From: an uncultured Cytophagales bacterium
GTDB taxonomy: Bacteria > Bacteroidota > Bacteroidia > Cytophagales > Cyclobacteriaceae
Length of the DNA stretch: 64,000 bases
Direction of reading: 5' to 3'
Assembly: GCA_913057175.1 (NCBI GenBank)
Contig: CAJXNP010000010.1
Span: 1-64,000, forward strand
A program made the position numbers and the translations under genes. Under the pieces are notes generated by a model. That model saw only the letters and a list, made by a program, of their open reading frames with translations. It had not been told where the DNA came from and searched no databases. Numbering within the stretch: position 1 is the first letter of the stretch; each line of letters begins with the position of its first letter. Below, piece after piece: positions 1 through 4,543 of this stretch.

Positions 1-185
1 ATATATATATGATTTATATAAGTTAATTGAATAAGTATTCTCTAAGTAAATATATCTTCTTTTAAGGTCGTAGCCTCCGGCTCCGATCCGCATCAACTAA
101 TTAATTTTTAAAATCACTCTTTTTTGATTTGGAGAATTAGGAGCAAGAAGAAATAAAGAAAGTTGAACTTTAAAAATATAAGACA

Positions 186-947
186 ATGTCCAAGTGTAGA
201 ATATGTAAGCTAGGCTGGCAGAAGAGAAAAGAGCTAGAGTATGAATACCTAGAAGGCAGAGTATCCAAAAATGAATTAGGTCGTAGGTATGGCGTCTCAA
301 TAGATACCATCAGGAGGCACTTTAACAGGCACATGGCACCCAAATTAGTTGAAGCCCATGAGAAGAGAGGTATGGTCCATGCTGAAAACCTGAGTAAGCA
401 AATTACAGAGTTGATCGATGACGCAAAACAGATCTTTTTCGAGGCTCGCCAAAAGAAACAAAATGCATTGGCTCTAAAGTCAATTGATTCCCAGCGTAAC
501 GTGTTTGACCTGCTCTTGAAGATTTCTAGTGAACTAAGAAAAAGGGAAGAATTGAAATTTGAACAGAACAAGCATAATGAGTTGGTAGACTCAGGAGAAG
601 AGATAAATCAGGGGTTGCAGAAACTGACACCAAAAGAGCAACATGTATATTTCCAGTTGTTGAATAAGATGATGTCCAATAACCCAGAAAGTATTGTAAT
701 TACAGGTTACGAGGATTTCTCAGATGTGGTTGGTTTGACTGATGATGTAGTTATTGAGGAGGCCGAGGAAGTTGAGGAAGAAACAAATGAACGCCCAAAG
801 TTGAAACGTACCACTGATCCTTATCACCAATACAGGTATAAGCCATTAGATGATTTGGACGAGCCAGTAGAAAGGAAAGAGAGGCTTTCTAGCAGTGAAA
901 AGCGTAAAAGGGACCGCAGCATACTAAAACGCATACGCAGAATATAA
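186..947 (+). CDS. Element-borne zinc/HTH DNA-binding protein, hypothetical
   Basis: A 253-residue protein of unknown function. The N-terminus has a CxxC pair (C4, C7), followed at about residues 26-47 by a helix-turn-helix-like stretch (ELGRRYGVSIDTIRRHF). A long charged, probably helical middle follows, then an acidic run near residues 190-203 and a very basic tail (KRKRDRSILKRIRRI). The layout recalls small-terminase or phage-island DNA-binding proteins, but no diagnostic motif fixes that. It lies on the mobile-element side of the comM junction, 250 bp upstream of the recombinases and on the same strand, so it is inferred to be cargo or replication/packaging-related. The DNA-binding role is inferred from the HTH only. 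Confidence 0.55.
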   Translation: MSKCRICKLGWQKRKELEYEYLEGRVSKNELGRRYGVSIDTIRRHFNRHMAPKLVEAHEKRGMVHAENLSKQITELIDDAKQIFFEARQKKQNALALKSIDSQRNVFDLLLKISSELRKREELKFEQNKHNELVDSGEEINQGLQKLTPKEQHVYFQLLNKMMSNNPESIVITGYEDFSDVVGLTDDVVIEEAEEVEEETNERPKLKRTTDPYHQYRYKPLDDLDEPVERKERLSSSEKRKRDRSILKRIRRI

Positions 948-974
948 ATTAAATCCTTACTCCACTATTTTTCC

Positions 975-1050
975 TAAGCTCTCCTGCATTATTAGCCCTT
1001 TACTGGGCTTGTTGTATAGCTAAAACTTTTTAAGGGCTGGAGAGCGCTTA
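975..1050. repeat. Imperfect long hairpin after the HTH gene
   Basis: Left-arm segments TAAGC (975-979), TCTCC (980-984) and AGCCCTT (994-1000) pair in order with AAGGGCT (1032-1038), GGAGA (1039-1043) and GCTTA (1046-1050), with small bulges and a 31-nt loop. It could be a structured transcript end for the upstream gene or part of a recombinase binding region. There is no T-run directly after the stem, so a classical terminator is not supported. Confidence 0.35.
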
Positions 1051-1114
1051 ATTTAAAAGATCCTTTTATAACTAAGTTTCATAAAATACTATTATACAGG
1101 TAATTGAAATCAAG

Positions 1115-1158
1115 CTTAAAAGTTAGTATGTATTTAAATGTTTGTACTAACTTTTAAG
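1115..1158. promoter_or_regulatory. Perfect 14-bp inverted repeat upstream of the recombinase genes
   Basis: CTTAAAAGTTAGTA (1115-1128) and TACTAACTTTTAAG (1145-1158) form a perfect 14-bp inverted repeat around a 16-bp centre that itself contains the palindrome ATTTAAAT. It ends 41 bp before the first recombinase start. Likely roles are a recombinase or repressor operator, or a res-like crossover site. The sequence shows only the symmetry. Confidence 0.45.
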
Positions 1159-1199
1159 TTTTACTATATTTATCCCTAGTAAAAACAAACTCTATTACT

Positions 1200-1925
1200 A
1201 TGAAAACAAGGGATAAACCATTACAGGCTGTTGGCTATGTTCGAGTCTCCAGCGCTAAGCAGTCTGATGAAGGTATTTCCATCGATGTTCAAATCAAAAA
1301 GATAAAACAGTGGGCTTCTTTACATGATGCCCAACTATTAAACATTTTTGGTGACGATGGAATTACTGGACGCAACATCAAGAGGAGACCGGGATTTCAA
1401 AAGGCTCTACAAAGTGTCCTCAACAAAAAGGCAATTCTTGTGTGCTATTCTCTAAGCAGGCTATCCAGAAGCACAAAGGACATGATACAGCTTGGCACTA
1501 AGCTAAATGAAGCAGGTGCAGAGCTTGTATCCTTGTCAGAGCAAATCGACACAACGACAGCATCAGGTAAAATGGTGTTCCGAATGTTAGCAGTTTTAAA
1601 TGAATTCGAAAGCGACCAAATCGGAGAGCGCACCAAAGCAGCTCTAACACTACTGCGGGAACAAGGAAAGAAGACTGGTGGACTGGTGCCGTACGGTTAT
1701 GACGTTGACGAAAGCGGGAACTTGTATGAAAACGAGCAGGAGCAAGACATTATCAAAAAGATAATGAGCAAGCACAAGAAGGGCATGAAATTCCAAACTA
1801 TAAGCAACTGGTTAAACGACCAAAGCATAAAGACTAAGACAGGTAAGAAATGGTATGCCCAATCTGTAAAGAACGTCATACAGGCAAACACCCAAAAACG
1901 ATTTGTAAGAACCAAATACTTTTAA
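1200..1925 (+). CDS. Small serine recombinase (resolvase/invertase N-terminal domain)
   Basis: A 241-residue serine-type site-specific recombinase. The N-terminal catalytic domain (about residues 8-150) has the YxRVS signature with the probable nucleophile S17, the SRLSR block with R87 and R90, and the typical helix with ERTKAAL. A short recombinase-type segment (GGLVPYGYDVDE, then a WLN/KTGKKW DNA-contact region) follows. It is too short to hold the zinc ribbon and coiled coil of a large serine integrase. The gene ends 11 bp before the second recombinase, so the two are probably co-transcribed. It may act as a resolvase, as an accessory directionality partner, or as the second subunit of a two-recombinase system. 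Confidence 0.85.
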   Translation: MKTRDKPLQAVGYVRVSSAKQSDEGISIDVQIKKIKQWASLHDAQLLNIFGDDGITGRNIKRRPGFQKALQSVLNKKAILVCYSLSRLSRSTKDMIQLGTKLNEAGAELVSLSEQIDTTTASGKMVFRMLAVLNEFESDQIGERTKAALTLLREQGKKTGGLVPYGYDVDESGNLYENEQEQDIIKKIMSKHKKGMKFQTISNWLNDQSIKTKTGKKWYAQSVKNVIQANTQKRFVRTKYF

Positions 1926-1936
1926 ACCCTAATCAA

Positions 1937-3571
1937 ATGAAAGAACAAAAATATGCAGTTTCCTACGCAAGGTTTAGCACACCTGAACAAGCAGAAGGAG
2001 ACAGCCTCCGTAGGCAAATAGATTTAGCACAAGAGTATGCAGATAAAAATGGGCTAATATTAATCAATTCACTATCTGATCTTGGTAAATCAGGTTTTCA
2101 TGGAATACATGTAAGTCAAGGAGCATTAGGGGAATTTCTAAAGTTTATAGAGGAGCCGAATATTAAAAAGCCTAGTGTATTAATTGTTGAAAACTTAGAT
2201 AGATTGAGCAGGGAAAATCCATTTAACGCATTTGGGCAATTCAGTGCAATCCTTTCAGCAGGTATAGAAATAGTAACACTCGGAGATAGACCTCAAATTT
2301 ATACTAAGGAAGCAGATGCTTATCAACTTATTCATGGTATCATAGACATGGATGTCGCTTACAAGCACTCTAAAAGAAAAAGTGATCTCCATTTAGAGAA
2401 CTGGGAAGGTAAAAGAAAGAAAGCTTCTGATTCTGAAATTATCATGACAAAAAGGGTACCTGCTTGGGTTGATGTTATCGGGGAAAAAGATGAAAAAAAA
2501 TTCCTTCCTAAAGAGGATGTGAAAGCAGCAATCAATTTGATCTATAAAATGAAATTAGCGGGCAAAGGATCGGGTGCAATAGCCAATGAACTTAACCAAA
2601 TGCCTGATGTATGGAAGCCACCGCAAACAGAAAAAAGAAATAAAACTGGAGGATGGCGCAAAAGTTATATCAACAAATTGCTTTGGAATAATCGGACAGT
2701 CATTGGAGAATTTCAACCATGTAAAATAGTAATAAGAAAAAGCAAGAATGATAGGAAATATAAGACTCGTGTACCTGAGGGTAAACCAATTCCAAATTAC
2801 TACCCTCCTGCTATTGATGTAGATTTGTATAATCAGGTTCAGAAATTGATTGCTGAAAATAGAACTAAGAAAGGTCATGCAGGTGGACAGACCGGTAAAG
2901 CTTCTAGCATATTTACACATACCATATTTTGTGCTAATTGTGGTAGTCCAATGCATTACATCAATAAAGGTAAGAACTGGCAGTATCTGCATTGTGACAG
3001 GAGTCGTCGAAAACTGTCTCCCGAATGTGATACTCCAACAATTCGGTACGATGAATTTTACGGGACATTTCTACGAAATTTCAAACAGCTAAATATTGAC
3101 GAGTTTTTACCAGGTACGGATGAAAGGCAAGCTCAAATTTCTCATTTACGTGAACGAATTACTAGTTATGAATATCAGTCAGAAGAAATAGAAAAACGAA
3201 TTGCTAATATTCGGGAAGAAGTTAGTCGTACAGATAATCAAAAACTTCGAGACGGATATAATCAGGATGCTATTAAGCTTATTGAAGATCAGGAATTAAT
3301 TGTTAAAAGAGTTGAAGAACTTAGAACTCGGTTAGAGGAACTTGAAAACAATGGCATAGAAATAAAGCGTAATATTAATCAGTTTAAAATGATTGAGAAA
3401 TTATTAGCTAAGGCTAAAACAGAGGAGGAAGAAATAGAAATTCGATTAAGGTTACGGGCTCAAGTAAGAAGGTTATTTGAACGCATTGAAGTAGATGCAG
3501 AAAATCGGTTCTACATGCTACATTTAAATTATAGGCCCACTAAATTGACGCGAACCCGATTTTCATTTTAA
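1937..3571 (+). CDS. Large serine recombinase (integrase)
   Basis: A 544-residue large serine integrase. The catalytic domain starts with SYARFSTPEQAEGDSLRRQ (probable nucleophile S14). A Recombinase domain follows (about residues 165-300), then a zinc ribbon with C332, C335, C353 and C364, and a long charged coiled coil (about residues 395-510) of the kind that controls synapsis and directionality. I chose the ATG at 1937. An in-frame start at 1850 would add 29 residues encoded inside the upstream gene and move the catalytic motif away from its usual N-terminal position. The gene ends about 80 bp from the comM junction, the usual place for an integrase next to its att site. It is the likely enzyme that inserted the element into comM. 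Confidence 0.9.
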   Translation: MKEQKYAVSYARFSTPEQAEGDSLRRQIDLAQEYADKNGLILINSLSDLGKSGFHGIHVSQGALGEFLKFIEEPNIKKPSVLIVENLDRLSRENPFNAFGQFSAILSAGIEIVTLGDRPQIYTKEADAYQLIHGIIDMDVAYKHSKRKSDLHLENWEGKRKKASDSEIIMTKRVPAWVDVIGEKDEKKFLPKEDVKAAINLIYKMKLAGKGSGAIANELNQMPDVWKPPQTEKRNKTGGWRKSYINKLLWNNRTVIGEFQPCKIVIRKSKNDRKYKTRVPEGKPIPNYYPPAIDVDLYNQVQKLIAENRTKKGHAGGQTGKASSIFTHTIFCANCGSPMHYINKGKNWQYLHCDRSRRKLSPECDTPTIRYDEFYGTFLRNFKQLNIDEFLPGTDERQAQISHLRERITSYEYQSEEIEKRIANIREEVSRTDNQKLRDGYNQDAIKLIEDQELIVKRVEELRTRLEELENNGIEIKRNINQFKMIEKLLAKAKTEEEEIEIRLRLRAQVRRLFERIEVDAENRFYMLHLNYRPTKLTRTRFSF

Positions 3572-3623
3572 GTTACTTTTAGTTATCTTTGAACACGCCG
3601 AAGCAAATCGGTTTTTTTAAGAT

Positions 3624-3660
3624 AAGTATTGTTATAACTTGTAACATACTTAATCATGAT
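3624..3660. other. Probable attachment-site junction (attR-like) inside comM
   Basis: The comM reading frame becomes recognisable at about 3650, directly before Met-Ile-Gly-Pro-Pro-Gly-Ala-Gly-Lys-Thr. Upstream there is only AT-rich element DNA with an in-frame stop (TAA, 3635-3637). The junction holds an 8-bp perfect palindrome, ATCATGAT (3653-3660). Next to it is an imperfect inverted repeat: AAGTAT (3624-3629) plus TGTTA faces TAACATACTT (3642-3651). Serine integrases use short, roughly symmetric sites like this. The partner site lies outside the window, so the crossover dinucleotide cannot be fixed. Confidence 0.55.
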
Positions 3661-4543
3661 CGGTCCTCCGGGTGCAGGAAAGACCATGCTGGCGAAGCGT
3701 CTTCCTACCATTCTACCGCCATTAACGTTACACGAAGCGCTCGAAACCACCAAGATCCATTCGGTAGCAGGAAAGATCGGACCCGATTCAGGGCTGATCT
3801 CCAGGAGGCCTTTCCGGTCGCCTCATCACACGATTTCGGACGTCGCTTTGGTTGGTGGCGGGGGAGTGCCACAACCGGGAGAAATCTCCTTAGCTCACAA
3901 TGGAATTTTGTTCCTTGATGAATTGCCTGAATTTAAACGGACTGTCCTCGAAGTGATGCGACAACCTCTTGAGGAACAAATTGTTAATATTTCCAGGGCG
4001 AAAGCATCCGTCAGCTTTCCTGCCAATTTCATGTTGATCGCCAGCATGAACCCAAGCCCTTCCGGGGAATTTTATACCGAAAACGGAAATAACCAGGACA
4101 CCCAACATGAAGTAAACCGGTACCTGAAGAAGATCAGCGGGCCACTGCTGGATAGAATCGATATTCACATCGAGGTGACCCCGGTTTCCTTTGAACAAAT
4201 GACCTCAGAGCGAAAGAATGAGAAAAGTGAAGTGATCCGGCAACGGGTGATCACAGCTCGCGAAATTCAAAAAGAGCGGTTTAAGGATTTTGACTCGGTG
4301 TACAACAACGCAATGATGCCTTCACAAACCATCAAAAAGCTTTGCCCCATCTCGGAAGCAGGAAAAACCCTCCTCAAAACAGCCATGGATAAGCTGGGAT
4401 TATCGGCCCGGGCTTACGATCGAATTCTCAAAGTCTCCCGAACCATCGCCGATCTGGCAGAAAGCGAAGACATCAAAATCGAGCATCTGGCTGAGGCCAT
4501 CCAGTACCGGTCACTGGATCGGGATAATTGGATGGGGAATTAA
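3650..4543 (+). pseudogene. comM: comM (YifB/Mg-chelatase-like AAA+ ATPase), 3' fragment
   Basis: This is the C-terminal 295 or so residues of ComM, normally about 510 residues: a hexameric helicase that helps integrate single-stranded DNA during natural transformation. The fragment opens with the Walker A motif GPPGAGKT, continues with the Mg-chelatase core (LFLDELPEF Walker B, then MLIASMNPSPSG), and ends with the family's C-terminal helical domain (SARAYDRILKVSRTIADLAES). The N-terminal Lon-protease-like domain is missing because the serine-recombinase element is inserted immediately before Walker A. An ATG at 3656 could start a truncated protein, but it would lack the N-terminal domain and begin inside the P-loop strand. 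The fragment looks uneroded, with no internal stops, which suggests a recent or reversible insertion. Confidence 0.9.

Follow-up and report, generated by a model that had tools for sequence, protein, structure and literature searches.

Introduction

A Mg chelatase/ATP-dependent protease gene is the target of 12.4% of predicted site-specific integrases according to passages of Durrant et al. (2022; PMC10083194). Most Wolbachia sr1WO recombinases are described, in parts of two reports, as integrating into the magnesium chelatase gene, portions of which flank the prophage (PMC9203015), in an orientation that is perhaps not fixed (PMC5447182). For Tn6022, which is Tn7-like and kin to AbaR, and for Tsy, sections of a further report give a TnsF selector and the Walker B stretch of comM as the target (PMC10293859). 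The original prediction for the locus described here had read the use of comM by a serine integrase in Bacteroidota as apparent convergence on one safe site; as a discovery this is not upheld, since large serine recombinases (LSRs) in the Mg-chelatase-like (ComM/YifB) gene are already in print.

The locus very probably represents a small integrative element that was inserted in comM by site-specific recombination through its own LSR, and integration of the LSR type (attP with attB) is well supported. The window, the whole stretch of 64 000 nucleotides analysed, is the beginning (bases 1-64000) of C10, one of the 40 contigs of a 6.62 Mb genome. Window base 1 is C10 base 1 and already lies inside the element, with the left junction outside the window.

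The comM halves and the crossover point

The target gene comM is split in two, with its halves flanking the element. The features at the right-hand junction are as follows.

3656..4543, plus strand: comM (yifB) 3' part, 295 aa, running from the Met that precedes IGPPGAGKT as far as the native stop
3653..3654, plus strand: crossover dinucleotide AT, the first two bases of the Ile codon at comM alignment position 218
3629..3652, plus strand: right half of attP (P arm), forming a dyad with the left end, 20/24 positions paired
3655..3669, plus strand: right half of attB (B' arm), which shares bases with the P-loop Gly-Pro-Pro codons

The 3' part begins at the crossover, window position 3653, and the LSR reading frame ends at 3571, 81 bp upstream, in agreement with the predicted abrupt start of the comM frame behind an LSR. 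Pfam matches of the 3' reading frame are Mg_chelatase (2.1e-78) and Mg_chelatase_C (3.9e-35), and positions 216-499 of the 499 in TIGR00368 (YifB) are covered. The 5' part, for which a search had been proposed, was located in the same genome with the N-terminal ComM domain as an open 219-aa frame at C30:40212-40871 that covers TIGR00368 positions 2-215. Since the two matches abut at 215|216, no comM residue is missing; no further comM piece was found in this genome at E ≤ 1e-10. The junctions lie on two contigs and we infer the link between C30 and C10 across the assembly gap from the two comM halves, not from contiguous sequence.

The left junction on C30 reads GGACATAATATC-AT-TAAGTAAGTAACAAGTTATAG and the right junction in the window reads GTTATAACTTGTAACATACTTA-AT-CATGATCGGTCC, with a second copy of the crossover AT at C30:40863-40864. 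The comM frame is interrupted after ...GGHNII, and the motif GGHNxxx[I/V]GPP is unbroken in all 30 of the best comM loci fetched from the family (L006-L035). In the reading frame kept by these relatives, only AT is common to attL and attR. By themselves the junction letters would suggest a 5-bp core, ATCAT; this was rejected as it would delete a codon that is present in 30/30 of the relatives' loci. The crossover is situated 7 bp upstream of the codon for the first Gly in GPPGAGKT. Insertion at the Walker A codons, as first proposed, holds in that the site adjoins them and the right arm of attB overlaps them, while the strand exchange itself is placed 7 bp to their 5' side. Of 750 centres tested within 400 bp in the rebuilt attP, AT ranks first as a dyad (20/24), and no other centre reaches that score. 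Thus two hallmarks of LSR integration, a 2-bp crossover core and a dyad-symmetric attP, are present, and together with both junctions and the LSR domains they bear out the predicted serine-recombinase integration into comM. The proposed comparison with the empty site in relatives found comM uninterrupted, defined the AT core and, among the relatives examined, revealed no element-free truncation at codon 218.

In the mechanism that would follow, attP of a circular form pairs with attB in comM, and cutting and rejoining at the 2-bp AT core in Ile codon 218 would yield attL (C30) and attR (window 3629-3669). Excision would restore comM exactly and would need a directionality factor, as for known LSRs. 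The activity of the LSR, excision, the loss of ComM function and its reversibility are accordingly predicted properties of the locus. Weighing against this model are the position of the junctions on separate contigs, with the middle of the element missing, and the palindromic AT core, which would not be usual in an integrase that has to fix orientation. Likewise, no circular form, no empty site within the strain and no directionality factor was seen in the assembly.

Gene content and relatives in the phylum

The visible parts of the element and its annotated genes are as follows.

1..3652, no strand assigned: right-hand 3.65 kb of the integrated element; C10 starts inside the element; G+C 36.8%
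C30:40865-46113: left 5.25 kb of the element
186..947, plus strand: HTH-like protein, 253 aa; conserved in the element family, with weak PHROG DNA-binding matches
1200..1925, plus strand: small serine recombinase, 241 aa; resolvase domain and half a recombinase domain
1937..3571, plus strand: LSR, 544 aa; Resolvase, Recombinase and zinc ribbon

The LSR reading frame is intact, and its three domains score 4.4e-15 (PF00239), 1.7e-11 (PF07508) and 1.3e-9 (PF13408). Ser14, which by motif position is presumably the catalytic serine, is invariant in 5/5 homologues. The LSR gave no match against solved structures, and no zinc ribbon was matched in the 241-aa small serine recombinase. Beyond the recombinases and HTH proteins, the scanned visible proteins of the element had no informative family match. 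The left half also encodes a 374-aa cargo protein (L005:6241-7365), for which Pfam, PHROG, PADLOC and NCBIfam returned no match and solved structures only chance-level ones (best E 0.21).

At E ≤ 1e-25, the LSR was found among 395 genomes of the phylum in its own genome and in only three others (G270, G416 and G508), all of which belong to a different family; the LSRs are 35-38% identical to that of the window. In a sample of 341 genomes of the order, the LSR profile at 1e-60 identified the own genome only. All three relatives have comM split at the same codon, hold both halves and show the core AT, and their elements measure 10.08 kb (G270), 11.26 kb (G416) and 9.55 kb (G508). An XRE-type regulator, a protein of ~290-300 aa, an HTH-like protein of ~250-260 aa, a small serine recombinase and an LSR are common to these elements and that of the window. 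The 253-aa HTH-like protein is 60% identical to a copy on C13 of its own genome and 24-27% identical to the copies in G508, G416 and G270. A profile made from the copies of the ~292-aa protein in these elements detected no further genome among the 395. In the window element, in the sister element on C13 and in G508 and G416, the LSR gene is preceded by that of the small serine recombinase, with a 61-aa reading frame between the two genes in G416; in G270 the small recombinase gene is located elsewhere in the element. Genes of 308, 459 and 412 aa in G508, G416 and G270, respectively, occupy the place where the present genome has its gap, from which a total size of about 10-11 kb is probable for the window element; the G416 gene, taken as the homologue of the one in the gap, had no match in the present genome.

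LSR relatives in other bacteria

An LSR alignment scan of a collection of 84,980 genomes gave 98 candidate stretches and 68 confirmed loci. In 34 of the 68, comM is within 400 bp of the LSR, and the other 34 have no adjoining comM. The 34 comM loci include, by record titles, alpha-, beta-, gamma- and deltaproteobacterial, Verrucomicrobiota and planctomycete records. In 33 of the 68 loci comM is broken at the P-loop within a few residues of the same place, the 5' parts ending at alignment positions 217-222 and the 3' parts beginning at 210-218. The use of the same place in such distant bacteria makes plausible the earlier suggestion that a P-loop target suits a broad host range. At L085:8427-9986, the comM next to the LSR spans alignment positions 32 to 510, which may reflect another comM site close to the 5' end. 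In 19 loci the comM 3' part is on the side of the LSR start, and in 13 the 5' part is; in one, the LSR stop faces the 3' part.

Both comM halves are held in 13 loci, with elements of 4.7-10.4 kb (the 10-kb flank caps the size that could be observed). At 11 of these loci the two ends carry the same first and second bases of codon 218; L115 and L118 show a C/T difference within Leu codons. Adding the own genome (G000), G416, G508 and G270 brings the figure to 15/17. Some of the 13 also share adjacent bases between their ends, and a 2-bp core at codon 218 is consistent with these wider loci without being fixed to those two bases.

A small serine recombinase lies inside 11/13 complete elements of other taxa. 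Its enrichment in comM elements is modest: of the loci offering 8 kb of downstream sequence it was found in 14/24 with comM versus 4/19 without (Fisher p 0.028), and at 5 kb in 11/25 versus 4/20 (p 0.12), in tests that ignore the relatedness of the loci. Its role could be the resolution of multimers or help with excision, both of which are guesses. The LSR tree requires several changes of the comM-target label and demonstrates neither a single origin nor repeated gain of comM targeting.

Some comM elements carry defence-like genes: a C5 methylase with Vsr (L118:13407-15150), a KAP NTPase (L119:14779-16659) and an RmrA-like HTH-peptidase (L169:6558-7682, in G270). One comM is doubly hit, its 3' part following one LSR element and giving way to another LSR reading frame after position ~325 (L125:16793-18984). 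At L108:17301-17525, the comM 3' part matches positions 212-288 only, and no Tns gene was recognized by eye in the reading frames downstream.

Nature of the element

The element could be a phage satellite or a defective prophage instead of an autonomous or mobilizable island, which we consider unlikely while still giving it appreciable weight. The nearest relative of the LSR (49% over 413 columns; L153:4814-6085) is on a 6-kb viral contig whose other reading frames resemble, by eye, phage head genes, and a size of ~10 kb together with a repressor-like HTH and an HTH protein is satellite-like. Against this, no head, tail, other structural or terminase family was matched in the visible element proteins scanned at E ≤ 0.01 (a single head-protein match, at E 0.025, is not significant), and neither the 253-aa nor the 292-aa family has confirmed relatives among viral contigs. 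The 253-aa protein also had no match in annotated phages, a search of the viral contigs with the LSR alone confirmed no relative, and comM does not stand beside the LSR in any of the six viral-contig loci.

A second, related element in the same genome bears on the continuity of the locus. C1 ends in the left part of this element (~519500-524303; L170) and C13 in its right part (~250400-254533; L084); the element adjoins an alkaline-phosphatase-like gene (named by eye), and its LSR is 41% identical to the window LSR over residues 6-392. Exactly 77 bp are identical between the C30 and C1 ends, and again exactly 77 bp between the start of C10 and the end of C13. Such equal overlaps look like an assembler word length, and the simplest reading of the contig breaks is a repeat common to both elements whose own contig was not kept. 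The sequence of the C30 end occurs in the assembly only at the C30 and C1 ends, and no 20-base matches to the element ends were found in C31-C40, searched over their first 20 kb and, for five of these contigs, over the full length.

The same paired contig ends could arise from recombination with the sister element after insertion, which would have moved the comM halves apart and left C30 unjoined to C10. A precedent is Wolbachia wRi, which in a passage of one report is described as rearranged, a piece of the same gene being left with each prophage fragment (PMC9203015). Rearrangement requires an extra event where an assembly-stopping repeat alone accounts for the breaks, and appears improbable; it would in any case leave the mechanism of insertion unchanged.

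comM in the family and the transposon alternative

comM is matched at E ≤ 1e-50 in 186 of the 196 family genomes sampled and is full length or nearly so among the matches listed. Twenty-one genomes were re-examined, namely the own genome, those with split or short matches, three of the ten without a match and two others. G098, G139 and G052 gave no match. In five genomes (G035, G055, G103, G147 and G163) comM is in two pieces with the break at residues ~283-288, and in G149 the 5' part ends at 229 and the gene resumes at 285. TnsA genes flank the splits near residue 285 in all six (L046-L050, L053, L057-L062). The 5' part in G149 (L062, G149:C4:82538-83224) stops within the P-loop (GPPGSG) and the gene restarts at residue 285 ~29 kb away, beside TnsA, possibly as the result of two insertions or one deletion. 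Elsewhere, comM has internal stops (G108 and G166) or is cut near contig ends (e.g. G161, G044, G058 and G054). A split at codon 218 was not seen in any re-examined family genome other than the own one.

A second comM site, at about residue 285, is thus used by Tn7-like elements in the same bacterial family. The parallel with AbaR drawn in the original prediction applies to the gene and fails for the site: Tn7-like elements of this family lie at about residue 285, and published targeting by Tn6022 and Tsy is at the Walker B codons (PMC10293859). Among Acinetobacter records of a phage collection, two contain comM residues 2-287 and two contain residues 281-503.

comM being a known Tn7-like target, and split next to TnsA in six genomes of the family, the present insertion might be ascribed to a DDE transposon of the Tn7/AbaR type with the LSR as a passenger. 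The TnsA-flanked splits, however, are at residues ~283-288 and not at 218 (the 5' part in G149 ending at 229), and no Tns/Tni transposition genes occur among the visible element proteins scanned. Tn7-like insertion produces a 5-bp target duplication, against the 2-bp core observed here. With an LSR-type dyad at the joined ends and an LSR that travels with this junction in other phyla, a transposon origin is scarcely credible. Decay or misassembly of comM beside an LSR present by chance, for which the internal stops in two family genomes might be cited, is equally remote given that both halves are open and abutting, that the same junction recurs in 3/3 of the other LSR-bearing genomes of the phylum and that a P-loop break lies beside the LSR in 33/68 loci elsewhere.

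A palindrome at the crossover

Inverted-repeat scores were compared over 1490 centres in 33 family comM genes that read through the site, two of which are truncated elsewhere by contig ends. The crossover comes first, with a dyad mean of 8.15 versus 3.76 overall (s.d. 1.0; 15 positions each side). The margin over the runner-up centres (8.00 and 7.88) is small, and the test is not independent, as the idea of a dyad and the choice of a width of 15 were both prompted by these very arms. The repeat is made up of the Gly-Gly-His codons on one side and the Gly-Pro-Pro codons on the other. For other taxa, represented by 13 rebuilt genes, the crossover ranks 5 of 1436 by mean (7.08 versus 4.25), and six of the 13 loci score 4-6 against a background of about 4.3. 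Taken singly, the crossover is among the best centres in the own genome, G508 and G270 and not in G416, where the dyads are weaker (attP 3 of 750 and attB 22 of 350 centres at width 24). As judged from these alignments, the dyad would account well for the site in the own group and partially elsewhere, and no universal rule is claimed.

A tentative proposal, to which we attach somewhat less than even confidence, is that the P-loop region may serve as a ready-made attB, a protein-constrained Gly-Gly-His/Gly-Pro-Pro inverted repeat centred on codon 218, where LSRs of many phyla would cross over at the first two bases (AT for Ile, CT or TT for Leu) in either orientation. The rare ~10-kb, two-recombinase lineage of the Bacteroidota type would then be one user of this site among others.

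Comparison with known systems

The gene yifB is reportedly listed as a regulated-integrity gene by Mageeney et al. (2020). The present locus resembles regulated gene integrity at yifB in that an interrupting element could restore the gene on excision, the restored frame being a prediction from the sequence. If active, the LSR with its att pair (AT core) would be a candidate integration tool.

The LSR elements of Durrant et al. share both recombinase class and target gene with the element described here; the passages of that report concerned with them do not place the insertions within the gene and mention neither a comparable element family nor a second recombinase (PMC10083194). In a portion of its description, sr1WO is a prophage with structural modules, unlike the comM element, and the two can be likened at the level of the gene (PMC9203015). 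No paper giving the codon-218 crossover position emerged from a literature search that, for most entries, covered the listing. LSR targeting of comM is thus already known, and the exact site and the element family look new. The additions suggested by these comparisons would be a rare family of ~10-kb elements that encode a small serine recombinase in addition to the LSR, a crossover conserved at a single codon and a palindrome centred there, offering a base-level account of why serine integrases use comM: a single protein-conserved codon beside the P-loop.

Like the present element, Tn6022 and Tsy, as far as the sections describing them extend, use comM at codons of a catalytic ATPase motif; they do so with Tn7-like or tyrosine-recombinase systems (PMC10293859), whereas here a serine recombinase would act at codon 218. 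Together with Walker B targeting by Tn6022 and Tsy, the site next to the P-loop suggests that both ATPase motifs of the recombination protein ComM appear as landing sites for enzymatically unrelated elements.
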